Shown here: positions 7,244-36,795 of the stretch, piece by piece
Layout of the letters: the number at the start of each line of letters is the position of its first letter
How positions within the stretch are numbered: the first letter of the stretch is position 1
NCBI GenBank assembly: GCA_903837345.1
Contig: CAILUG010000031.1
Coordinates: 1-39,516, forward strand
DNA from: an uncultured Gammaproteobacteria bacterium
GTDB taxonomy: Bacteria; Pseudomonadota; Gammaproteobacteria; Pseudomonadales; Pseudohongiellaceae
DNA: 39,516 bases
Direction: 5' to 3'
Position numbers and translations under genes: made by a program
The notes under the pieces: generated by a model
Told to the model about the DNA's origin: nothing
Seen by the model: the letters and a program-made list of their open reading frames with translations, nothing else
Databases searched by the model: none

Positions 7244-8242
7244 TCAGGCGCTGGCAGTCGAACGTTCGATGAACGGATCACAATAGATATTGGCAGACCT
7301 GACGCCTTTCAGAAATGCCAGTTTGCGCAGCGTTTGCACGAAGGCCGGATTTCCGCACAGATAAACCCTGGTGTCGGCAGCGGGCAGGGCAGCAAGTTGA
7401 GCCAGTGCAATCTGTATCGCATCGCCTTGCTGGCAACTGCTGTCGGCAGTGGCTTCACGCACAACTGCTGTGTAGCTGAAATTGGGGTAAGTGGCGGCCA
7501 GCGAGCGCAATTCCTGCCGGTAGTACAGCTGCTCGGCAGTGCTGCCGGCATGCAACAGGGAAATCGGGCCTTGATGCCCCTGGTCAAGGGCATCGTTGAG
7601 GATGCCGTATAGCGGCGCCAGACCGGTGCCACCACCGACCAGCAACATCGGCTGCAGCTGGCTGGTTTCTTTCAGATAGAAGCAATTGCCGGCCGGACCG
7701 CGCAGCTGCACACTGTCGCCAATCTTCGCCTCATTGAACAGCCAGTTGCTGAACAGCCCCTGCGCAGTGGCAGCAATGTGGAATTCGGCACAGCCATCGG
7801 CGCGACAATCATTGGCCATGGAATAGCTGCGCATGATGCCGGCTGGATTGACCACATTCAGATATTGGCCGGGCCGGCATTCTGCCAATGCCTTGCTGTC
7901 ATCAGCTCGTACCACCAGTTTCATCACCGCCGGATTCAGCAATTGCAACGCATGAATGCTGCCATGCACAGACACGGCAGCGTCATCCGGCAGTCGCACG
8001 CTCACATCGGCTTCTGGCTGCCATTGGCAGGCGAGAGCGTGACGGGTTTGCTGGAGCGTGGATTTCAGCCCCTGCATCGCGCGCGAGGTGGGCTGGCAAT
8101 CCACCGCCTGTACCAGGCAGGCCTGGCACAAACCGGATTTGCAGGAGTAAGACACCGCCTGCCCATTTCGCAACAGGCAATCAAGCACGCTTTCTCCCGG
8201 CTCCAACAGGTAGTGTTCATGCTGGAAGCTAAGCAATGACAT
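7244..8242 (-). CDS. 2Fe-2S ferredoxin / ferredoxin-NAD(P)H reductase (oxygenase- or globin-type reductase)
   Basis: This 332-aa electron-transfer protein has an N-terminal plant-type 2Fe-2S domain with cysteines 34, 39, 42 and 72 (CKSGLCQAC then ACQ). A ferredoxin-NADP reductase module follows: flavin motif RSYS (138-141), pyridine-nucleotide loop GGGTGLAP (203-210) and the C-terminal LCGNP (295-299). This order matches reductases of phenol or benzoate oxygenases and CDP-glucoseen-type reductases. It lies 15 bases downstream of a truncated haemoglobin gene and near nsrR. The likely role is to reduce the globin from NAD(P)H for nitric oxide dioxygenation, in effect a two-gene flavohaemoglobin. 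Supplying an aromatic oxygenase elsewhere is the alternative. No strong Shine-Dalgarno is visible, so translation may be coupled to the globin gene. Confidence 0.87.
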   Translation of the reverse strand: MSLLSFQHEHYLLEPGESVLDCLLRNGQAVSYSCKSGLCQACLVQAVDCQPTSRAMQGLKSTLQQTRHALACQWQPEADVSVRLPDDAAVSVHGSIHALQLLNPAVMKLVVRADDSKALAECRPGQYLNVVNPAGIMRSYSMANDCRADGCAEFHIAATAQGLFSNWLFNEAKIGDSVQLRGPAGNCFYLKETSQLQPMLLVGGGTGLAPLYGILNDALDQGHQGPISLLHAGSTAEQLYYRQELRSLAATYPNFSYTAVVREATADSSCQQGDAIQIALAQLAALPAADTRVYLCGNPAFVQTLRKLAFLKGVRSANIYCDPFIERSTASA

Positions 8243-10221: not shown

Positions 10222-11268
10222 TCAGGCGGGGAATTGTTCAGTATCTATTTCGGTTTGGGTTGGTGGGTTGTAGCGGTCACCAACCACGGTGTGATGGTTA
10301 ATGATTGCGTCGAGTTTGGCTAGCTGTGATGCATCAAGTTTCACATTGATTGCACCGAAATTCTCTTTCGCATAGTCCAGATGACGGGTGCCGGGGATGG
10401 GAATGATGTGGGGAGCCCTGGCCAGCAGCCAGGCCAGTGCCAGTTGCGCCGGGGTACATCCCGCTTCTTTGGCGATCGCGTTGTACCGGGGCAGCAGTTC
10501 GAGGTTTTTTGGATAATTCTCCGGATAGAAGCGCGGAAAGTTGTGGCGTATGTCGGTGGCTTCCAGCTGGTTCTGCGGGTCGTTGAGCTTGCCGGTGAGA
10601 AAACCGCGCGCCAGCGGGCTGAAAGCCACGAAGGCGATTTGCAATTCCTGGCAGGCCTTGAGTACGGCGATTTCAGGATTGCGGCTCCACAACGAATATT
10701 CGGTTTGCAGTGCCGTGATCGGGTGCACCTTGTGCGCCTTGCGCAGCGTTTCGGCTGAAACTTCCGACAGGCCGATGGCTTGCACCTTGCCTTCTTCCAC
10801 CAGCCGGCTCAATGCTCCCACACTGTCTTCAATCGGCACCTTGAAATCGCGGCGATGCAGGTAGTAGAGGTCTATCACATCGGTCTGCAAACGCTGCAGC
10901 GAACCTTCGCACACTGCACGTATACTGGCAGGGGTGCCATCGATCACGCGTTTGCCTTCCGGGCTTCTGACGATGCCACATTTGCTGGCCAGCACGAATT
11001 GGTGGCGACGCGGTTTCATCACGCGGCCGATCAGCTCTTCATTCTTGCCGAAGCCGTACAGATAGGCGGTATCGAGGAAGTTGTAACCGATGTCGAGCGC
11101 TGCTTCGAGTGTGCGTTCTGCTTCCGCCAGATCGGGGGTGCCATAGGCATGCGACATGCTCATGCAGCCGAGGCCGATGGCATTGACAGTGAAATGGCCT
11201 AGTTTGCGTAAATTGGTGTCAGAGTCGAATTTCCGCTGACTGGAGTTCATGGTTTTTGCGGTAGTCAT
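10222..11268 (-). CDS. Aldo/keto reductase with a repeat-encoded N-terminus
   Basis: This 348-aa NADPH-dependent aldo/keto reductase has the catalytic tetrad D66, Y71, K96 and H138 and the motifs IGLGCMSM, FLDTAYLYG and LHRRD. It belongs to the broad YakC/Tas-like group that reduces aldehydes. The normal family N-terminus begins near residue 21 (RKLGHFTVNAIGLG). Residues 12-20 are encoded by one arm of a 26-bp perfect inverted repeat. The candidate start codons (ATG at 11268 or 11250) lie in the loop between the arms, and no Shine-Dalgarno is visible for either. The repeat thus appears to have invaded or rebuilt the 5' end. Translation may depend on coupling to ligC, whose stop is 27 bases upstream. 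The true start is uncertain. Confidence 0.85.
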   Translation of the reverse strand: MTTAKTMNSSQRKFDSDTNLRKLGHFTVNAIGLGCMSMSHAYGTPDLAEAERTLEAALDIGYNFLDTAYLYGFGKNEELIGRVMKPRRHQFVLASKCGIVRSPEGKRVIDGTPASIRAVCEGSLQRLQTDVIDLYYLHRRDFKVPIEDSVGALSRLVEEGKVQAIGLSEVSAETLRKAHKVHPITALQTEYSLWSRNPEIAVLKACQELQIAFVAFSPLARGFLTGKLNDPQNQLEATDIRHNFPRFYPENYPKNLELLPRYNAIAKEAGCTPAQLALAWLLARAPHIIPIPGTRHLDYAKENFGAINVKLDASQLAKLDAIINHHTVVGDRYNPPTQTEIDTEQFPA

Positions 11269-11294
11269 GGAAATTCGACTCTGACACCAATTTA
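11209..11294. repeat. 26-bp perfect inverted repeat, REP-like palindrome
   Basis: Bases 11209-11234 and 11269-11294 are exact reverse complements (core GGTGTCAGAGTCGAATTTCC), separated by 34 bases. The element lies between the ligC stop (11296-11298) and the aldo/keto reductase coding sequence, whose two possible start codons are in the loop. It resembles the extragenic palindromes mobilised in trans by RAYT/IS200-like transposases. No such transposase is in the window, so the class is inferred. Confidence 0.85.
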
Positions 11295-11295
11295 T

Positions 11296-12261
11296 TTATT
11301 TGCTGCGGCTGAGTGACTGTTCCAGTTTGTCCAGGGTTTCCATCGCCGGCAGACATTGGGCAATGGACGCATTCGGTTCACGGCCTTCCTTGATCGCCGC
11401 AAAGAATTCACGGTCCTGCAGCTCGATGCCGTTCATCGACACGTCCACTTTCGACACATCGATCTTGTTGTCCTTGCCGTCGAACAGATCGTCATAACGG
11501 GCGAGGTAGGTGCCGTTGTCGCAGATGTAGCGGAAGAAGGTGCCAAGCGGGCCGTCGTTGTTGAATGACAGCGACAGTGTGCAGATGGCACCGCCTGCGG
11601 TCTTCATGCCGATGCTCATGTCCATCGCGATTTTGAGCTCCGGATGATGGGGACCTTCCAGCGCGTGGCAGTATTTCACCGGCTCGCCGGTCTGGTACGA
11701 GAACAGGTCTACGGTGTGGCAGGCATGATGCCAGAGCAGATGATCTGTCCAGCTGCGTGCGTTGCCGGCGGCATTGAGGTTGGTGCGGCGGAAGAAATAG
11801 GTCTGCACATCCATCTGCAGCACTTTCAGCTCGCCGGCCTTGATTTTTTTGTGTATCCACTGGTGTGAGGGATTGAAACGGCGGGTGTGGCCGGCCATGG
11901 CCACCAGTTTCCTGCCGTTCTTGTTGGCTTCCTGTTGCGCCGCCAGAATTGCACGCGAATCAGCCACGCTGTCGGCCATTGGAATTTCCACCTGCACGTG
12001 CTTGCCGGCTTGCAGACACTGGATCGTCTGCGCGGCATGCACCTGGGTAGCGGAAGTGATGATGACGGCGTCGATGTCCTGTTTGAGACATTCACCAAGA
12101 TCAGTGCCCCAATGCCTGATGCCACGTTTGTCGGCAGCAGCTTTGGTGGCATCTTCGCGACGACCGCAAATCGACACAACTTCAACGCCCGCGATGTTCT
12201 TGATCGCATCCATGTGTTTGTCGGCGAAGGCGCCATGCCCAACCATCAATACTTTCGTCAT
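11296..12261 (-). CDS. ligC: 4-carboxy-2-hydroxymuconate-6-semialdehyde dehydrogenase
   Basis: This Gfo/Idh/MocA-family oxidoreductase of 321 aa has an N-terminal Rossmann fold (MVGHGAFADKH). Long stretches match what I recall of Sphingobium LigC: GKHVQVEIPMADS, GHTRRFNPSHQ, SWTDHLLWHHACHTVDLF and FNNDGPLGTFFRYICDNGT. LigC oxidises the hemiacetal form of the protocatechuate 4,5-cleavage product to 2-pyrone-4,6-dicarboxylate with NADP+. I chose the ATG at 12261 because AAGGGG lies 8 bases upstream; a TTG at 12267 is also open. It is the last clear gene of the ligK-A-B-C operon, 18 bases after ligB, and ends at the 26-bp inverted repeat. Confidence 0.94.
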   Translation of the reverse strand: MTKVLMVGHGAFADKHMDAIKNIAGVEVVSICGRREDATKAAADKRGIRHWGTDLGECLKQDIDAVIITSATQVHAAQTIQCLQAGKHVQVEIPMADSVADSRAILAAQQEANKNGRKLVAMAGHTRRFNPSHQWIHKKIKAGELKVLQMDVQTYFFRRTNLNAAGNARSWTDHLLWHHACHTVDLFSYQTGEPVKYCHALEGPHHPELKIAMDMSIGMKTAGGAICTLSLSFNNDGPLGTFFRYICDNGTYLARYDDLFDGKDNKIDVSKVDVSMNGIELQDREFFAAIKEGREPNASIAQCLPAMETLDKLEQSLSRSK

Positions 12262-12279: not shown

Positions 12280-13392
12280 TTACTTCTTTGCTGCTTTCTT
12301 CTTGACTGCCTTCTTCGCGGTTGCTTTTTTGGCTACTTTTTTCGCGACTTTCTTCGCAACTGCTTTTCTAGCCACTGTCTTTTTCTTTACTGCGGTCTTC
12401 TTCGCCGGCTTCTTCACCACCGATTTCTTTTTCGCAGGTGTTTTCTTCGCCAGCTTCTTCTTCACGGCACTTTTCTTCACAGCGCTTTTCTTCACAGCGG
12501 ATTTCTTCACAGCAGCTTTCTTCTTCGCTGCCGCTTTTTTCTTTGGCTTCTTGTCGTCGGTTTCGATCACGATCACGGCGGCAGCGGTGTTGGACGCCGG
12601 CACGTGATAATGGCGATAGACTTCATGCACGTTGTCGCCGAGCGCGCCACGCATGGCCATCCACATCACCATTTCGATGCCTTCGGCGCCGCTGTCCTGC
12701 ACGTACTCTTCGTGCTTGATCTTGCGCAGGCGTGCAGGATTTTTGGTGAGATCGTTGAGGAACGCAGTATCAAACGGCGTGTTGATCATGCCGGAGCGTT
12801 CGCCATGAATCTGGTGTGACATGCCGCCGGTGCCGAACACTACTACTTTCAGGTCTTCCGGGAATGACTCAACCGCCTTGCGAATGGTTTCGCCCAGACG
12901 CCAGCAGCGATCGCCGCTCGGTACCGGGAACATCACGACGTTGACTGCAATCGGGATCACCGCGAACGGCCATTCGTCGACCAGGCCGCAGGTGATGTTC
13001 ATCGGGATGGTCAGACCGTGGTCGACATCCAGCTTGTTCATCACGCACATGTCGAACTCATTGATGATCAGGGTTTCGGTCAGATGCCAGGCCAGTTTGG
13101 AATGGCCTTTGACGACCGGCACCTTGCGCGGGCCCCAGCCTTCATCGGCCGGCTGGAATTCATCGGCAACGCCGATCGCGAATGTCGGGATCGTTTCCAG
13201 GGTGATGGCGCTGCCATGATCGTTGTAAACGATGATGGCGACGTCGGGTTTGTGTTTTCGCATCCACTCTTGTGCGGCCGGATAGCCGTCAAACAAGGGC
13301 TTCCAGTACGGATCCTGGGTCAAGCCCTGATCGAAGGCAGCGCCAATGGCGGGAACGTGGGAACAGCCGATACCTGCAGTAATTTTTGCCAT
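12280..13392 (-). CDS. ligB: Protocatechuate 4,5-dioxygenase beta (catalytic) subunit with lysine-rich C-terminal tail
   Basis: This extradiol dioxygenase of the LigB superfamily has 370 aa against about 302 for Sphingobium LigB. Iron ligands H12, H59 and E240 and the catalytic H193 (GGMSHQIHG) are in place, as are YNDHGSA, DEGWGPR, MRGALGD and HYHVPASNTA. It opens protocatechuate, and possibly gallate, between carbons 4 and 5 with its partner LigA. After residue 280 the protein turns into a 90-residue tail of Lys, Ala, Val, Ser, Thr, Pro and Leu with 43 lysines, one arginine and no acidic residue, including KKSAV repeats. The tail resembles histone H1 or bacterial H1-like/AlgP proteins and is unknown to me in any LigB. 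It is in frame with no gap, 7 bases after ligA. Confidence 0.95.
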   Translation of the reverse strand: MAKITAGIGCSHVPAIGAAFDQGLTQDPYWKPLFDGYPAAQEWMRKHKPDVAIIVYNDHGSAITLETIPTFAIGVADEFQPADEGWGPRKVPVVKGHSKLAWHLTETLIINEFDMCVMNKLDVDHGLTIPMNITCGLVDEWPFAVIPIAVNVVMFPVPSGDRCWRLGETIRKAVESFPEDLKVVVFGTGGMSHQIHGERSGMINTPFDTAFLNDLTKNPARLRKIKHEEYVQDSGAEGIEMVMWMAMRGALGDNVHEVYRHYHVPASNTAAAVIVIETDDKKPKKKAAAKKKAAVKKSAVKKSAVKKSAVKKKLAKKTPAKKKSVVKKPAKKTAVKKKTVARKAVAKKVAKKVAKKATAKKAVKKKAAKK

Positions 13393-13399
13393 CTGAGTC

Positions 13400-13867
13400 T
13401 TATGCCTTCTTGCTGTAGTCTTTGTGGGAAAGGTTGGAAATGCACAGCACTTTGCCGCCGTTTTCCTTCTTGTTCCGGTTGCCTTTCACAACACGGCCGC
13501 CGTCCATCATCATCGCGCGGTAGTTGTCCTGGCCCTGGCCGGTCATTTCGCCTGCCATGTACTGGAACGAGCGGCCGAGTGTCGCGCCGAATTTGCTCAT
13601 GTAGTAGATGTTGGCGCCGTTCTTGATCATGCCGAGCCAGTCGCGCTCAAGCACACAGCGGCGCTGGTCGGCGGTCAGTTTCGGAAAGCGGCTGTCGAGA
13701 TAGCCGGCTTCGTCAGCGAGGAAAGCCTTGCGGTTTTCATCCTTCGCCATCGAGGAGCAGAACATGTTGAGGAAATAACCCTGGCGGCAGCGATCTGCAT
13801 TGAACAGATAAGTGCCCGGTACTTGTTCAAACTTGGCTTTCAGAGCCTGGATTTCAGCGTAGTCCAT
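13400..13867 (-). CDS. ligA: Protocatechuate 4,5-dioxygenase alpha subunit
   Basis: This small helical subunit has 155 aa; Sphingobium LigA has about 139. Family landmarks include VPGTYLFNADRCRQGYFLN, DENRKAFLADEAGYLD, RDWLGMIKNGANIYYMSK, GRSFQYMAGEMTG and MMMDGGR. LigA caps the active site of LigB and is needed for full activity. The C-terminal extension (about 130-155, KGNRNKKENGGKVLCISNLSHKDYSKKA) is longer than in LigA and basic. The gene sits 57 bases after ligK and 7 bases before ligB in a clear operon. Confidence 0.94.
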   Translation of the reverse strand: MDYAEIQALKAKFEQVPGTYLFNADRCRQGYFLNMFCSSMAKDENRKAFLADEAGYLDSRFPKLTADQRRCVLERDWLGMIKNGANIYYMSKFGATLGRSFQYMAGEMTGQGQDNYRAMMMDGGRVVKGNRNKKENGGKVLCISNLSHKDYSKKA

Positions 13868-13924: not shown

Positions 13925-14623
13925 TTATTTCAGATCGTCGAGAGTATCCAGATAGACGAATCCTTCTTTCACCAGCCGCTCACGCATGCTGTAGATATCA
14001 AGGCCGAGTTCGCCTTTCTGCAATTTTTCACGCTTGGCGACTTCTGCCGCTTCGCGTTTTTTGGCGAGATCGCGTACTGCCAACGCATCCTGGCGTTTGA
14101 TGACGCAAACACCATCTTCATCGGCCACCACGACATCACCGGGTACTACATAGGCACCTGCACACACGATCGGCACGTTTACACAGCCGAGCGTTTCCTT
14201 GACGGTGCCTTTGGCATGAACCGCTTTCGACCACACCGGGAAATTCATTTCGCGCAGGTCCTTGATGTCGCGCACACCGGCGTCAATGATGAGGCCGCGC
14301 ACGCCGCGGGCCTGGCAGGAGCTGGCGAGCAGGTCACCGAAGAAGCCGTCGGTGCTGTCGGCGGTGAGACCCACCACCAGGATGTCGCCAGGTTTGCAGA
14401 GTTCGATGGCGACATGAATCATCCAGTTGTCGCCCGGCTGTGCCAGAATGGTGACAGCACTGCCGGCTATGCGAGGCGTGCCCCACACCGAGCGCATGTA
14501 GGGCGCCATCAGTCCGGTGCGGCCCTGGGCTTCATGGGTGGTGGCAACGCCCAGCAGGGCGAGATCATCGATGACGGATTGTTCGGCGCGCTGGATATTG
14601 CGGACGGCGACTGGCTTGAACAT
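13925..14623 (-). CDS. ligK: 4-carboxy-4-hydroxy-2-oxoadipate aldolase / oxaloacetate decarboxylase
   Basis: This RraA-fold class II aldolase (HMG/CHA aldolase) has 232 aa. Landmarks are [11 protein letters not shown], the pyruvate/metal-site segment GFFGDLLA (93-100), [11 protein letters not shown] with R118 and D119, and [20 protein letters not shown]. It splits 4-carboxy-4-hydroxy-2-oxoadipate to pyruvate plus oxaloacetate, the last step of the protocatechuate 4,5-cleavage and gallate routes, and decarboxylates oxaloacetate. The ATG at 14623 has AGGAAAG upstream and matches the family start, so an extension to 14668 was rejected. It is the first gene of ligK-A-B-C, with a good sigma-70 promoter just upstream. 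Confidence 0.93.
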
Positions 14624-14651
14624 GGGGCTTTCCTGACGAAAAAACTGCGGC

Positions 14652-14681
14652 ATTATATGCACTTGCACGAGGCTGGCTCAA
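14652..14681 (-). promoter_or_regulatory. Sigma-70-type promoter of the ligKABC operon
   Basis: On the minus strand, TTGAGC (14676-14681) and a perfect TATAAT (14652-14657) are 18 bases apart. Transcription would start near 14645 and leave a leader of about 22 bases before the ligK ATG. The 142-base divergent region (14624-14765) shared with galD also has AAATGCATTT and two TTGCAC elements that could bind a regulator. No regulator gene for this pathway is in the window. Confidence 0.6.
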
Positions 14682-14765
14682 ATGCATTTTTTGCTTGCAC
14701 ATTTGCGGTAAATCATCGATTTTCCAGCTTTTCCAACTTTTTGATCCATCTTGACGAGGCCAGTC

Positions 14766-15839
14766 ATGCAAGTTGCGGTTCCCTGTATGTTGATGCGCGG
14801 CGGTACTTCCAAAGGCGCCTATTTCCTGGAGAGTGATCTGCCATCTGACACCGGCAAGCGTGACCAGGCGCTGCTCGGCATCATGGGTTCGCCCGACAAG
14901 CGCCAGATTGACGGGGTGGGAGGCGCGCATCCGCTCACCAGCAAGGTCGCCATAATCAGGAAATCTGCCCGTCCTGGAATAGATGTGGACTACCTGTTTG
15001 TGCAGGTGATGGTGGAAGAAGCCAAGGTGTCGGCTTCCCAGAACTGCGGCAACATCCTGGCTGGTGTCGGTCCGTTTGCAATCGAGCAAGGGCTGGTGAA
15101 GGCCGAGGATGGCGAAACCGTGGTGACCGTGTACATGGAAAACACCGACAGTGTCGCCAAGGAACGCATCCTGACGCCGGGCCGCAAAGTGCAGTATCAC
15201 GGCGATGCCCACATCGATGGTGTGCCCGGCACCCATGCCCCGATCATGATCGAGTTTCTTGATGTGGCAGGTTCCAGCTGCGGCGCGCTGTTCCCGACCG
15301 GCAATTTCTCTGACATGGTCAACGGCCTCAGAGTAACGATGGTCGACAACGGCATGCCGGTGGTGATGATCGATGCCAGGGATCTGGGGCTGCGAGGAGA
15401 TGAGAGTATTGAAGCCCTGGAAGCCAATACCGGGCTCAAGCAGACGATTGAAGCCCTGCGCCTGGCCGTTGGGCCGCTGATGAATCTCGGCGATGTCAAA
15501 GACAAAACCGTGCCGAAAATGACCATCGTCTCGCCGCCGAAAGCCGGCGGTATCCTCAATACCCGCAGTTTCATCCCGCACCGGGTGCATGATGCAGTGG
15601 GCGTGCTGGCTGCTGCCAGTGTGGCGACTGCCGCCAACATTCCGGGCGCAGTGGGACATGACATTGCCAACCTGCCCACCGGCCAGCGTCGCGTGTGTGA
15701 AGTGGAACACCCGACTGGCACCATGGGCGTGGAAGTGGTGCTGGCGGATGATCCGAACGACAGGGTGCCCAAAAGCACTTCCATCATGCGCACCGCCCGC
15801 CTGCTGTTTGCCGGCACTGTGTACTATCTGGAAAAATAA
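14766..15839 (+). CDS. galD: 4-oxalomesaconate tautomerase (PrpF family)
   Basis: This 357-aa PrpF-family isomerase closely follows Pseudomonas GalD as I recall it: CMLMRGGTSKGAYFL, MGSPDKRQIDGVGGAHPLTSKVAII, SQNCGNILAGVGPFA, DNGMPVVM and NTRSFIPHR. GalD interconverts keto and enol tautomers of 4-oxalomesaconate so that the hydratase can act on it. The usual glycine-rich GGTSKG near residue 12 and the conserved Cys in QNCGN are present. The ATG at 14766 follows GAGG at normal spacing; an in-frame TTG at 14751 was rejected. It is divergent from ligK and completes the local pathway set. Confidence 0.93.
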   Translation: MQVAVPCMLMRGGTSKGAYFLESDLPSDTGKRDQALLGIMGSPDKRQIDGVGGAHPLTSKVAIIRKSARPGIDVDYLFVQVMVEEAKVSASQNCGNILAGVGPFAIEQGLVKAEDGETVVTVYMENTDSVAKERILTPGRKVQYHGDAHIDGVPGTHAPIMIEFLDVAGSSCGALFPTGNFSDMVNGLRVTMVDNGMPVVMIDARDLGLRGDESIEALEANTGLKQTIEALRLAVGPLMNLGDVKDKTVPKMTIVSPPKAGGILNTRSFIPHRVHDAVGVLAAASVATAANIPGAVGHDIANLPTGQRRVCEVEHPTGTMGVEVVLADDPNDRVPKSTSIMRTARLLFAGTVYYLEK

Positions 15840-17001: not shown

Positions 17002-17889
17002 CTAGAGTTGGTTGGCGGTAATCGAGCGCGCCAGTTCCAGCATGGCGACCCTGTTGGATGGCAGCAGCCGTGACAGCGGCAGCGATTCCACCGCGATATT
17101 CTTTTCTTCCAGGATATGCAGGATGCCATCGCTGGTGCGATGCAGCCTGATTTCCTTCTGCGTGCGGTCGGCGTAGTAAGTGGAATGGTAGGCCAGGGTC
17201 AGATGCAACACGGCACCCTCGCTGGTTTCATTGACCAGTTCCATGTTTTCCAGCTGCAGCTGGATCACGGCAGGCCGGATGATCTTGACAGTGCGGTCAT
17301 CCCGCCAGGCATCTGTGCTCGCCATCAAAGGCGCTTTGAATTGCGGATCGTAGTGGCTGAAATAACCGTCAAGATCCTTGTGTTGCCAGGAGTTCAGCCA
17401 GCTGCTGATGAACTGGTTAATGTTGTCGCGGTTGTTCTGCAGCCCTGACACTTCCGCATCGGGCTGGATCACCATGGGTTCGCCAATGCGAGTCGCAATT
17501 TTGACACCGGCAGCAGCAGTCTGTCGCGGTTGCGCAGCAGTAGTTTGTCGTGGTTGCGCAGCAGTTGTCGGCGCAGCAGCCGTGAGCAGGCCAGGCGGCT
17601 GCACTTCCACTACCTTGTTCAACTCACGCAGGATGCGCAGCTGACCATCGGTGTCGCGTCCCAGCACCAGTTCTTTGGTGGTGCGGTCCGAGTAGGTGGG
17701 CGACTGATAGTCCAGCCGGAAACTCACGGTCGTGCCGGTGGCATCGGTGCCTGCCACTTGCAGATCAGTGAGGCTGAGCTCAATACGTGACGGTCGTGAC
17801 AGGCTGCGGATGCGGTCTTCGCGCCAGCTGTTGCGGTTGTTGTGGTAGAGCGACGCAAAAACTTGTGTGATAAAAGCCGAGGTAGGCAT
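17002..17889 (-). CDS. C-terminal part of the frameshifted ExeA-like gene, two NTF2-like domains
   Basis: This 295-aa frame overlaps the 3' end of the ATPase frame by 110 bases and looks like its continuation, not a separate gene. It begins inside a domain interrupted in the other frame (SLYHNNRNSWREDRIRSL...TVSFRLDYQSPTYSDRTTKELVL). After a linker with near-identical repeats (TTAAQPRQ, TTAAQPRQ, TAAAG) it has a second copy of the same fold (WLNSWQHKDLDGYFSHYDPQF...LTLAYHSTYYADRTQKEIRL). These resemble SnoaL/NTF2-like modules seen at the ends of bacterial TPR and transpeptidase proteins. No convincing ribosome site precedes 17889. With one T removed from the run at 17857-17861, both frames fuse into one 753-aa protein (17002-19264). 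Confidence 0.6.
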   Translation of the reverse strand: MPTSAFITQVFASLYHNNRNSWREDRIRSLSRPSRIELSLTDLQVAGTDATGTTVSFRLDYQSPTYSDRTTKELVLGRDTDGQLRILRELNKVVEVQPPGLLTAAAPTTAAQPRQTTAAQPRQTAAAGVKIATRIGEPMVIQPDAEVSGLQNNRDNINQFISSWLNSWQHKDLDGYFSHYDPQFKAPLMASTDAWRDDRTVKIIRPAVIQLQLENMELVNETSEGAVLHLTLAYHSTYYADRTQKEIRLHRTSDGILHILEEKNIAVESLPLSRLLPSNRVAMLELARSITANQL

Positions 17890-19264
17890 TGGTGTCCTGT
17901 TGTTTCCAGGCTGCCAACCAGTTGTTCACAACCGCTTCGAGCTCGGCAGGGCTGGCAGGCGCAGTGTTAATCACCACAGCGGGAGTAGGTGTGGCTGCAA
18001 TAATGCCTGGGGCTGGAGCTGGGGCAGGTGCGGTAACGCGTGCAACAGAGGCCGGGGGAGCAACAGCAGGGGCAGTTGGTGGTTGCACTGGTGGCGCTAC
18101 TGGCGCAGCTGGTGCCTGCGCTGCAGCAGCAGGCGGGGTAAGCGTGGTTTGGGTTACTTGTGGTTGGGGTGCAGGCGGCGGTGCTGTTACAGCAGTTGCA
18201 ACCGGGGCAGCAACGGGTGCAGGTGTTGGTGCGGGTGTGGCCGGTGTTGCAGGTGCTTGGGTTGCCGGTGCTTGAGAAGCCGGTGCTTGAGAAGCCGGTG
18301 CAGGAGTCGATGCAATCTGCGCAGCACCACTGCTTGCCGGTTGGGCGCCAGGATGCATGTGTTCGTTATAGAGCGCCAGGATATTGGGGTAATAGACATA
18401 AACAGTACTTGCCGCAGCAGCCGCGAACAGTACATTTGCGGTTGGTTTGAGCCAGCGCTTGGTTTCCGGCGGGATGTTGTTGATCTGTTCGGCGATGTTG
18501 TGGATCACCTGACTTATCATTGCAGGTTCCTTTTCTGCAACTTCTGGCGGCAATTCACCGCGTGTGTTCTGGATCAGGAACAGAGGGTCTGCCATCCCCG
18601 CTTCCAGTTCAGACAGGATTGCTCCCGGCATGCCGCGGGTCCGTTCCTGCAAACCTTCCAGATAGCTCAGGTTGAGGGCGATACGGCCTTTGCCGGCCTG
18701 CTGCAACCAGGTTGAACAAAACTCACTGAGTTCTGCTTCTTCCAGTGCATTGAGGGAATAATTCAGACTGATGTCTGCCTGTAGCCCCGCCAGTTCGGGT
18801 TGCGCCAGATGGACGTTGAGGGTCTTGTCTCCGCATAACAGCAAGCTGATCAGGAGCTGGCCATTGTTGTCGAGATCGCGCAAACCATGCAGGCCTGCCA
18901 GGGCTTCGACACTCATTTGCTGGGTGTCGTCGATCACCAGTATCAGTTTTTGCAGGTCTCTGGGCTTGGTGGCGAGGTAGCGGGTCAGGGATTTTCTGAA
19001 ACTGAGGTCGGCACCCAGTTTGAACTTGCGGATCAGGGTTGCTTGCAGATCATCGACTGACTTGGGCGGGATCTTGAAATCCACCACCTCGAAATTCTCA
19101 CTGCGCAATTCCTTGCAGAGCTCCTGCAGCAAACTGGATTTGCCTGCTCCCAGCGGCCCGGTCAGCTTCACTACACCATCACTGAAAGAGAATACGGTGC
19201 TGATCCCGGAGATGATCTCCTGGTAGGGTCCAGTATTCAGATATGTGGCTGTGGGGGTGCTCAT
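17780..19264 (-). CDS. ExeA/MshM-like membrane ATPase, N-terminal part of a frameshifted gene
   Basis: This 494-aa frame starts with a AAA-type ATPase domain: Walker A GPLGAGKSS (36-44), Walker B LILVIDD (107-113), as in the ExeA/GspA/MshM group that handles peptidoglycan around secretion or pilus machines. A single transmembrane segment (about 275-292) is followed by a long Ala/Pro-rich region (about 305-455) that would span the periplasm. The beginning of an NTF2-like domain (LEAVVNNWLAAWKQQDTNAYLGFYHTSF) then shifts to unrelated residues and stops. The missing remainder is found one frame away. The start ATG at 19264 has no strong ribosome site; a GTG at 19300 is also open. Its partner and target are unknown. 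Confidence 0.7.
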   Translation of the reverse strand: MSTPTATYLNTGPYQEIISGISTVFSFSDGVVKLTGPLGAGKSSLLQELCKELRSENFEVVDFKIPPKSVDDLQATLIRKFKLGADLSFRKSLTRYLATKPRDLQKLILVIDDTQQMSVEALAGLHGLRDLDNNGQLLISLLLCGDKTLNVHLAQPELAGLQADISLNYSLNALEEAELSEFCSTWLQQAGKGRIALNLSYLEGLQERTRGMPGAILSELEAGMADPLFLIQNTRGELPPEVAEKEPAMISQVIHNIAEQINNIPPETKRWLKPTANVLFAAAAASTVYVYYPNILALYNEHMHPGAQPASSGAAQIASTPAPASQAPASQAPATQAPATPATPAPTPAPVAAPVATAVTAPPPAPQPQVTQTTLTPPAAAAQAPAAPVAPPVQPPTAPAVAPPASVARVTAPAPAPAPGIIAATPTPAVVINTAPASPAELEAVVNNWLAAWKQQDTNAYLGFYHTSFCVALPQQPQQLARRPHPQPVTTVTY

Positions 19265-19287
19265 GCGGCGGGCCCTGACCCTTAAAA

Positions 19288-19327
19288 TTAGTAAAAACAC
19301 TTATTAATCAGTGAGTAATAATACTAA
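19288..19327 (-). promoter_or_regulatory. AT-rich nested inverted repeats before the ExeA-like gene
   Basis: TTAGTA (19288-19293) pairs with TACTAA (19322-19327), and inside it TTATTA (19301-19306) pairs with TAATAA (19316-19321). The block is the most AT-rich stretch nearby and sits directly upstream of the ATPase gene, so it may be its promoter and an operator. From 19328 to 19467 I see nothing further that I can support. Confidence 0.35.
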
Positions 19328-19954: not shown

Positions 19955-20024
19955 TTTTGGTTGTTGATAACCGGTTATTGATAACCGGTAGTTGATTATC
20001 AGTTGTTGATTATTGCCAGTTGAT
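19955..20024 (-). repeat. Five tandem 14-bp repeats in the leader of the VOC gene
   Basis: On the minus strand the block reads as five units of exactly 14 bases: ATCAACTGGCAATA, ATCAACAACTGATA, ATCAACTACCGGTT, ATCAATAACCGGTT, ATCAACAACCAAAA. Each begins ATCAAY, and the array runs straight into the Shine-Dalgarno of the VOC gene. It may be a set of binding sites or a slippage-prone leader. The rest of the 349-base gap (20025-20292) has no gene or structure I can support apart from the GAGGGA ribosome site at its end. Confidence 0.85.
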
Positions 20025-35388: not shown

Positions 35389-36795
35389 ATGATCAAAAAT
35401 AGTCTTTCTTCCGCTATGGAAGCCGCCGGCGGTGCCGTCAATTTGTTGCGCAATTCCAAAGCCGGTATCTACGTATACCCGGTGGTTGCGCCTGAATTCT
35501 CCAACTGGCGTTCAGAGCAGATGGCCTGGCGCAATTCCGCAGTACTTTTCGATCAGACCCATCACATGGATGAGCTGACCGTTGAAGGCCCGGATGCAGA
35601 AAAATTCCTGAGCTATGTGGGTATCAACAGCTTCGCCAACTTCAAACTGAATCTTGCCAAGCACTTTGTACCGGTTACTCCCCAAGGTCACGTGATCGGT
35701 GACATGATCATCTTCCGTGAAACCGAAACCAAATTTGTACTGGTTGGCCGCGCTCCTACTGCCAACTGGGTAATGTTCCAGGCTTCGATCGGCAACTACA
35801 ACGTGCGTCTGAAACACGATCCACGTTCCGACAGCCGCCCCGATGGCAAAGCCATCTACCGCACCCACTACCGCTTCCAGATCCAGGGCCCTGAAGCCAA
35901 CAAGATCTTTGAAGTAATGAACGGCGGCCCGATTCCTGACGTGAAATTCTTCCACGTAGATACCGTCAATATCGGTTCACGCAAAGTACAAGCCCTGCGT
36001 CACGGCATGGCAGGCGCCCCCGGCCTTGAAATCTGGGGTCCCTATGCCGACAAGAGCTACATCCAGACCACAATCGCCGAAGCTGCCAAAAAAGCCGGCG
36101 TTGATCTGCGTTTCGTCGGTGCGCGCGCCTACTCTTCCAACACGCTGGAATCCGGCTGGATCCCGTCCCCGCTGCCAGGCATCTACACCGGCGACGGCAT
36201 GATGCAGCAGTATCGCGACTGGTTGGGCGCTGACAGCTATGAAGCCATGGGCTCCATCGGTGGTTCGCTGGTCAGCAACAACATCGAAGACTACTACGTT
36301 ACTCCGTTCGAACTCGGTTACGACTTCTACATCGGCTGGAAGAAAGAAGACTTCATCGGCAAAGCCGCTCTCGAAGCCATGAAAGCCAAAGCCAACCGCA
36401 AGAAAGTCACCATCGAGTGGAACCGTGAAGACGTGATGAAAGTCATCGCTTCCTGCTTCGAGCCTGGCCTGGCATTCAAATGGATCGACTTCCCGCAGCC
36501 AAACTACTCGTCCAGCAACGCAGATGCGCTGATGAAAGACGGCAAGCGCGTCGGCATGTCAATGTTCAATGGCTACTCCTACAACGAGCGTTGCCTGTTG
36601 TCGCTGGCAGTGGTTGATGCTGACGTGCAGGTCGGCGACGTGCTGACCCTCCTGTGGGGCGAGCCGGAACTGACTGGCAAAACCTCGATCGAGCCGCACA
36701 AACAGGCACAGATCCGCGTTAAAGTCGCTCCGACTCCTTACGCTGCTGATGCCCGCGAAAACTATGCAGACAGCTGGAGAACCAAAGCCAAGTAA
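35389..36795 (+). CDS. ligM: Tetrahydrofolate-dependent aromatic O-demethylase (vanillate / 3-O-methylgallate / syringate type)
   Basis: This 468-aa protein of the GcvT (aminomethyltransferase) family closely follows Sphingobium LigM as I recall it: YVYPVVAPEFSNWR, WRNSAVLFDQTHHM, HVIGDMIIF, LRHGMAGAPGLEIWGPY, SNTLESGWIPSPLP, SSNIEDYYV-like SNNIEDYYV and GMSMFNGYSYNE. LigM and DesA move the methoxy methyl group of vanillate, 3-O-methylgallate or syringate to tetrahydrofolate; which of these is the substrate here is open. The products, protocatechuate or gallate, are LigAB substrates, which links this gene to the cluster at 11-16 kb. Lysine is mostly AAA and Asn/Tyr almost always AAC/TAC, unlike the neighbours, suggesting strong expression. 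AGGAG lies 12 bases before the ATG. A strong terminator follows. Confidence 0.92.
   Translation: MIKNSLSSAMEAAGGAVNLLRNSKAGIYVYPVVAPEFSNWRSEQMAWRNSAVLFDQTHHMDELTVEGPDAEKFLSYVGINSFANFKLNLAKHFVPVTPQGHVIGDMIIFRETETKFVLVGRAPTANWVMFQASIGNYNVRLKHDPRSDSRPDGKAIYRTHYRFQIQGPEANKIFEVMNGGPIPDVKFFHVDTVNIGSRKVQALRHGMAGAPGLEIWGPYADKSYIQTTIAEAAKKAGVDLRFVGARAYSSNTLESGWIPSPLPGIYTGDGMMQQYRDWLGADSYEAMGSIGGSLVSNNIEDYYVTPFELGYDFYIGWKKEDFIGKAALEAMKAKANRKKVTIEWNREDVMKVIASCFEPGLAFKWIDFPQPNYSSSNADALMKDGKRVGMSMFNGYSYNERCLLSLAVVDADVQVGDVLTLLWGEPELTGKTSIEPHKQAQIRVKVAPTPYAADARENYADSWRTKAK

Follow-up and report, generated by a model that had tools for sequence, protein, structure and literature searches.

A histone H1-like lysine-rich tail on a gammaproteobacterial protocatechuate 4,5-dioxygenase, a possible polyanion tether

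A protocatechuate (PCA) 4,5-dioxygenase from an uncultured gammaproteobacterium of the Pseudohongiellaceae carries a long lysine-rich extension on its beta subunit, LigB. Its sequence marks this LigB as an ordinary PCA 4,5-dioxygenase beta subunit with a disordered, repeat-built polycation at its C-terminus. With a probability of about one half, this tail would act as a polyanion tether without sequence specificity, placing LigAB on nucleic acid or polyphosphate (polyP). Both the enzyme and the type of tail are known; what seems new is their combination, the apparent recurrence of this in a second lineage, and the form in which both subunits are tailed.

The gene lies on a contig of 39,516 nucleotides (CAILUG010000031.1), the whole of which was analysed and is called the window here. 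It is a single open frame of 370 amino acids with no internal stop (12280-13392, minus strand), and sits inside a PCA 4,5-cleavage cluster comprising ligK, ligA, ligB, a probable ligC, and a divergent tautomerase gene. The features by window position are as follows.

7244-8242: ferredoxin-reductase-like gene (best NCBIfam models PRK05713, MmoC and BenC, all below cut-offs)
11296-12261, minus strand: Gfo/Idh/MocA-type oxidoreductase, probably ligC (CHMS dehydrogenase; PF01408, PF19858; name inferred from context)
12280-12282, minus strand: stop codon TAA of the tailed ligB
12283-12552, minus strand: Lys/Ala/Val tail of 90 residues (281-370), net +44, predicted to be disordered, built of pentamer repeats
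12553-13392, minus strand: LigB catalytic core, PCA 4,5-dioxygenase beta subunit (residues 1-280; profiles, structure, invariant residues)
13400-13867, minus strand: ligA, encoding an alpha subunit of 155 aa that has a mildly basic extension at its C-terminus, net +8 (PF07746, E=1.6e-27; TIGR02792, 142.1 bits over 108.6)
13925-14668, minus strand: ligK, 4-carboxy-4-hydroxy-2-oxoadipate aldolase (TIGR02798 and NF006731, above cut-off)
14751-15839, plus strand: divergent 4-oxalomesaconate tautomerase (NF033377, above cut-off)
35389-36795: vanillate/3-O-methylgallate O-demethylase (above profile cut-off)

The probable ligC is directly downstream of ligB and starts 18 bp beyond its stop. Three other repeat-bearing places were seen in the window. 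A perfect 22-bp inverted repeat (11211-11232 and 11271-11292, arms 38 bp apart; chance expectation 0) surrounds the start of an aldo/keto reductase gene, and among 241 loci its exact copies occur only in the four that hold that place of the window. The overlapping frames at 17780-19300 and 17002-17889 are P/A-rich, of low complexity, and contain 15- and 24-bp tandem repeats (18246-18301, 17510-17569); PADLOC gave no match for them, and a 506-aa frame among them resembles, by reading, an AAA ATPase containing a linker of repeats. Finally, a 14-bp tandem repeat, GGTTGTTGATAACC, is present in 3.7 copies at 19959-20010, between listed ORFs of at least 150 aa.

The catalytic core is complete, as the first-pass annotation of this DNA had claimed. 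It scores 231.7 bits against Pfam PF02900 (E=1.1e-68, cut-off 26.3) and 417.3 bits against NCBIfam NF009903 (cut-off 317), and phmmer matches it to chain 1b4u_B at E=3e-109. In the AF2 model, the ten-residue blocks of residues 1-280 have a pLDDT of 75-98, and the best solved Foldseek match of the model is 1bou_B of LigAB (E=6e-41, TM-score by target 0.90). Residues H12, H59, H125, H193, and E240 are invariant in an alignment of 25 rows (A1). H12, H59, E240, and H193 align with His12, His61, Glu242, and His195 of 1b4u_B (SYK-6 numbering), which we take to be the iron ligands and the base of LigAB. Thus, the window shares with the SYK-6 enzyme (PDB 1b4u, 1bou) the core over residues 1-280, the catalytic residues, and an adjoining separate LigA gene. 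SYK-6 LigB is 302 aa long and is aligned up to its residue 282, so that the remaining 20 residues leave no room for a long polycation.

Five LigB family matches are encoded in the genome, and the lysine tail is found on the window's copy only. A paralogue on contig C48 (58% identical) and the match on C23 end at the core, while that on C54 also ends without a lysine tail. The C24 match (L003, G000:C24) runs into a LigA-like part, forming a gallate-dioxygenase-like LigB-LigA fusion whose LigA part begins where the window's tail sits.

The tail is composed of 43 lysines, 22 alanines, 12 valines, four serines, four threonines, three prolines, one leucine, and one arginine, with no aspartate or glutamate; the coordinates and counts given at first pass are right. 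Its pLDDT is below 50 throughout residues 281-370, which predicts disorder. Tandem 15-bp units were detected in its DNA at 12396-12463, 12451-12523, and 12451-12543, and four consecutive 15-mers encode KKAAV/KKSAV units that differ from one another by synonymous changes, bearing out the description of KKSAV-type repeats made by 15-bp DNA units. The spacing of lysines has a period of five (lag-5 z = 4.9 against shuffled order). This period is found in the tails of the related genomes G007 (7.2), G009 (4.2), and G004 (3.3), and is absent in G002 (0.1) and G003 (0.2).

The genus was sampled with 11 genomes, including the window's own, and an orthologue was defined by an identity of at least 75%. 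Eight of the 11 genomes have one, and in six of these eight it is tailed. Counted from residue 281, the tails measure 90 residues in the window's genome, 120 in G007, 91 in G002, 99 in G009, and 103 in G003, as well as 50 in G004, where the contig ends; their net charge ranges from +24 (the partial one) to +54. Charge and composition are common to all six tails, and residue order is not. The G008 and G006 orthologues, at 86-89% identity to the window's LigB, stop at the core. A tail produced by frameshift, chimera, or contamination has next to no chance of being the explanation, and no support for any of the three was found. The same architecture, with divergent sequence, is repeated in five other genomes of the genus; four of the five have a contig that continues, and in all four the downstream gene start is the same; the window's locus lies within an assembly rated 100% complete and 0.18% contaminated. 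The tail is therefore one real frame, as had been proposed. Programmed frameshifting was also dropped, since slippery AAAAAAG motifs are not conserved across the tailed genomes (three in the window's tail, one in G004, five in G009, none in G007, G002, and G003).

In a midpoint-rooted maximum-likelihood tree of 26 cores, the six tailed rows form one clade (93/95); G008 and G006 fall outside it and untailed relatives lie further out. This branching fits a single gain of the tail in the genus, after which none of the sampled rows lost it. No tail remnant was seen after the stops of the tail-less loci L011 (65 bases to the contig end) and L013 (327 bases), and hence there is no sign of recent tail loss.

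The genus is not the only place where tailed LigBs occur. Here, a cationic tail is defined as at least 20 residues with K+R of at least 25% and a net charge of at least +6. All fetched loci together contain 186 distinct LigB ORFs at least 50% identical to the core, and 23 of them have such a tail, six in the genus and 17 elsewhere. The sample is biased, since the window was its starting point and two of the six search peptides derive from the tail. None of 86 non-window LigBs is tailed in the loci that were fetched from samples of the phylum, the f82 family, the order, and two classes, covering part of the matches; one of the 86 is the C48 paralogue of this genome. The f82 family was first assumed to be kin to the family of locus L079; no tail was found in it or in its order, and both serve as untailed samples only. 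The end of L055, by reading, has no cationic tail either. The earlier claim, that the known LigB proteins stop shortly beyond the core, thus holds for most of the LigBs sampled here and fails for 17 K/R-tailed ones. Plasmid records gave 92 matches, none covering 80% of the query, in a search that masked low complexity and is uninformative on tails.

All 17 tailed LigBs outside the genus come from records titled as MAGs; the titles name Hyphomicrobiales, Rhizobiales, or Xanthobacteraceae in 16 cases and Proteobacteria in one. Their tails extend 25-49 residues from the core end, are rich in K, R, and A, and in 16 cases contain, to varying degree, a KRAAAR-like stretch; the tail of L079 is H1-like instead. 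Since the five LigBs of this group that were placed in the tree lie far from the window's genus, the tail is likely to have arisen at least twice, the second lineage being apparently independent as far as the core phylogeny goes. With L079 and an untailed Rhizobium row, the tree does not fix the number of origins within the Hyphomicrobiales. For the 16 LigBs sharing the KRAAAR-like stretch, the median pN and pS are 0.37 and 0.60 in the tail, and 0.08 and 0.42 in the core (120 non-independent pairs, no shuffle control), and constraint on these tails is weaker than on their cores.

In this second lineage, the alpha subunit is tailed as well. Of the 16 loci that hold ligA, 15 encode a LigA with a low-complexity, K/R-rich C-terminal tail (L045, L049, L050, L052-L054, L056-L060, L062, L064, L070, and L086), the exception being L079; LigA was not found on L071. 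Pfam confirms LigA in all four cases tested. Beside the tailed LigBs of the window's genus, four of six LigAs pass the rule, although their basic ends are short, at 36 residues, and are not long tails. Elsewhere, one of 167 LigAs passes; this count left out 12 rows with low coverage, identity below 35%, or an over-long tail. Basic ends on other ORFs are found in three of 130 in the 17 loci, all Arg-rich and perhaps not genes; LigB and LigA are excluded from this figure, and the simple ORF picker behind it recovered just nine LigBs and ten LigAs. Given that both subunits are tailed and other ORFs so rarely have basic ends, the tail belongs to the enzyme and not to the neighbourhood.

Repeats of this kind might also arise with little help from selection. 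Between the window's and the G007 tails, there are 35.8 synonymous and 22.2 nonsynonymous changes, giving a dN/dS of 0.09 (0.03 in the core). Because the alignment of repetitive sequence can flatter dN/dS, a comparison with shuffled codons was run (100 order-shuffled codon sets per pair) on six of the possible tail pairs. In three, pN lies under all 100 shuffles: own-G007 at 0.114 (shuffle minimum 0.258), own-G009 at 0.238 (0.268), and G007-G009 at 0.151 (0.278). In own-G002 (0.341, minimum 0.328), own-G003 (0.436, 0.409), and G009-G003 (0.449, 0.377) it does not, and only tail composition is kept. Neutral change was simulated on the tail DNA by substitution only (kappa 2, no indels). At 0.64 substitutions per site, which is near the core dS of the own-G007 pair, the simulated tails have a mean of 7.3 acidic residues and 3.2 stops, and at 0.32 or more, none of 5000 runs is free of both. 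As simulated neutral change brings in acids and stops, the charge of the tail is not what drift would leave.

These results bear on the possibility that the tail grew in a nearly neutral manner, by expansion of 15-bp slippage units at a tolerant C-terminus, and drifts in frame without a specific role. The near-identity of the 15-bp units and the difference in length between the window's and G007 tails (90 and 120 residues) are what such growth would produce; two orthologues do without a tail, the order of residues is free in G002 and G003, and Hc2, too, changes its length by gain and loss of repeats (PMC2848022). However, the real tails lack the acids and stops of simulated drift, the closer pairs have a synonymous excess, and a second lineage bears tails on the same enzyme, which together make neutral growth improbable.

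The reading as a polyanion tether gives the charge a use. The tail turns an acidic enzyme (core net charge -11) into a strongly basic one (+31 for the full chain), and the LigAB complex is an alpha2beta2 assembly, which at these charges would be a multivalent polycation. From the charge of the tail alone, polyanion binding in vitro is very likely. In the cell, the tail would hold LigAB on nucleic acid (the nucleoid or RNA) or on polyP, and this would set the location, clustering, or activity of the enzyme. Binding and localisation as the selected benefit, that is, the biological use of the tail, are the parts that we infer. In favour of the tether are the charge kept throughout one clade and the reappearance of tails in a distant lineage, where both subunits have them. 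Against it are the tail-less orthologues in G008 and G006, the unconserved order in some pairs, and the lack of the pentamer period in G002 and G003.

Hc2 consists of pentamers with two basic residues and Ala, Val, Thr, or Pro, in a variable number of repeats (PMC2848022), and the window's tail has this Hc2-type lysine-rich pentamer periodicity. Its score against Pfam HC2 (PF07382) is 26.2 bits, below the cut-off of 40, and that of the G007 tail (L007) is 45.5, above it; L009, L010, and L012 (G002, G009, and G003) have no match at E up to 0.01, so that G007 alone reaches the cut-off and the four others tested do not, which also counts against the tether. The NCBIfam H1-like profile NF038053 gives 24.2 bits to the window's tail, below its cut-off, and 34.3 bits to that of L007. 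The window's tail may thus be called H1/Hc2-like by composition and is not an HC2 member by score. Hc2 and BpH1 are free DNA-binding polycations, whereas the polycation described here forms part of an enzyme.

Among the functions proposed for the tail, the best precedents exist for polyanion binding, in AlgP, a Trypanosoma cruzi histidine ammonia-lyase, and YihI. Spacing of polyP granules requires the C-terminal domain of AlgP, and peptides of its repeats bind DNA (PMC9239181). Like the tailed LigB, the Pseudomonas proteins AlgP and PhaF combine a structured part with disordered lysine-rich C-terminal repeats (PMC9239181), but they are non-catalytic granule or nucleoid proteins, with KPAA units in place of KKxxx. 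The T. cruzi histidine ammonia-lyase is a catabolic enzyme whose lysine-rich disordered C-terminus binds polyP, and this inhibits the enzyme (PMC8561398); its tail, unlike that of LigB, is 13 residues long and belongs to a eukaryote and its acidocalcisome. A lysine-rich disordered region of Escherichia coli YihI binds polyP as well (PMC12345225). The polyP-binding PASK motif, a 20-residue stretch with at least 75% D/E/S/K (PMC12345225), is absent from the window's tail, where the best stretch reaches 12 of 20, and this is a further point against the tether. The mostly unordered basic C-terminus of Cobetia PhaC2 matches the HC2 model (PMC8686332), but that extension has 380 residues and sits on a PHA polymerase unrelated to LigB. 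Actinobacterial topoisomerase I has C-terminal lysine repeats (PMC7398561); it acts on DNA, and its repeats, unlike those of LigB, therefore have an obvious target.

Both a target and a model for such binding are available in these genomes. All ten genomes tested have a polyP kinase gene (PF02503), and ten of 12 have a free lysine-rich H1-like protein of varying length (E 3e-19 to 0.6). Neither tracks the tail, since both occur in tail-less members, the free protein in G008. In the window's own genome, this protein has 76 aa with 37 lysines (G000:C17:9504-9731; L117:2005-2232, minus strand), gives no Pfam or NCBIfam match, and lies beside an AlgP-like Ala/Lys/Arg-rich ORF of 236 aa. The longest DNA match between its gene and the tail is 68% over 185 bases, in many alternative registers, which is what shared codons would give, and it does not settle whether the tail is a copy of the H1-like gene. 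K-codon pattern matches number 13+40 against 16+34 in the reversed control, with two clusters used. When the own genome was searched with the tail at E up to 10, the tail itself was the only match; the H1-like gene was missed, and so this search gives no evidence of uniqueness.

Other uses of the charge place its target closer to the active site or to the pathway. Cationic tails near the LigA/LigB cleft might gather protocatechuate electrostatically, or hold the product for LigC. LigA forms the lid of the active site. In LigB-LigA fusions (L003 of this genome, 3wku), the C-terminus of LigB runs straight into the LigA part, and thus the tail probably leaves the enzyme near LigA; tails on both subunits in the second lineage would suit the same role. 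However, the same catalytic core is found without a tail in the C48 paralogue and in two orthologues, and a chain of +44 would presumably be neutralised by cellular polyanions, so that substrate gathering has only a slim chance. Docking to a partner has odds just as slender: here, the tail would bind an acidic protein, such as a ferredoxin re-reducing the iron or another pathway enzyme, or would drive a condensate. Recurrent tails, on two subunits in the second lineage, favour multivalent contacts, and the window holds the ferredoxin-reductase-like gene with its sub-threshold models. Yet none of the pathway neighbours tested has a strong negative charge (LigK -2, LigC 0, the aldo/keto reductase +1, the tautomerase -6), and the core charge is alike with and without a tail (-6 to -12 in five of six tailed cores measured; -10 and -12 in tail-less ones). 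Compensation for the tail by the charge of the core was looked for in this comparison and not seen.

Polybasic tails can bind acidic membranes, and this general ability would allow the tail to anchor LigAB on anionic phospholipid. Against this, the window's tail is nearly devoid of hydrophobic and aromatic residues (one F/W/Y/L/I/M/C in 90), G002 being the exception with eight in 91, and the AF2 model has it as a low-confidence coil with no amphipathic helix; a membrane anchor is very unlikely.

A broader version of the tether would have polycationic tails gained independently, on the beta subunit alone in the gammaproteobacterial genus and on alpha and beta in the Hyphomicrobiales, gather PCA 4,5-dioxygenase on nucleic acid or polyP into a condensate that organises or regulates the catabolism of lignin-derived aromatics. 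This is a tentative proposal and, on present sequence comparisons, rather doubtful.

Among the papers listed for open-access PMC, none links a tail of lysine-rich or H1-like type to protocatechuate or to ring-cleavage dioxygenases, in agreement with the first-pass annotation, which knew of no such tail on a ring-cleavage dioxygenase. In the available text of PMC6880040, class II extradiol enzymes have tails of 12 and five residues and the word 'lysine' is absent; in that of PMC8431788, a characterisation of a PCA 4,5-dioxygenase, neither 'tail' nor 'lysine' occurs.

Histone-like polycationic tails were previously known on proteins associated with DNA, granules, or polyP, and here one is found on a soluble catabolic enzyme. 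That such tails occur in two lineages, and on alpha as well as beta in one of the two, points to a spatial or charge control of aromatic ring cleavage that has gone unrecognised. The existence of tail-less orthologues at 86-89% identity within the genus provides a clean natural comparison. Such control would have a bearing on the use of lignin-derived carbon, and on the immobilisation of enzymes by charge.
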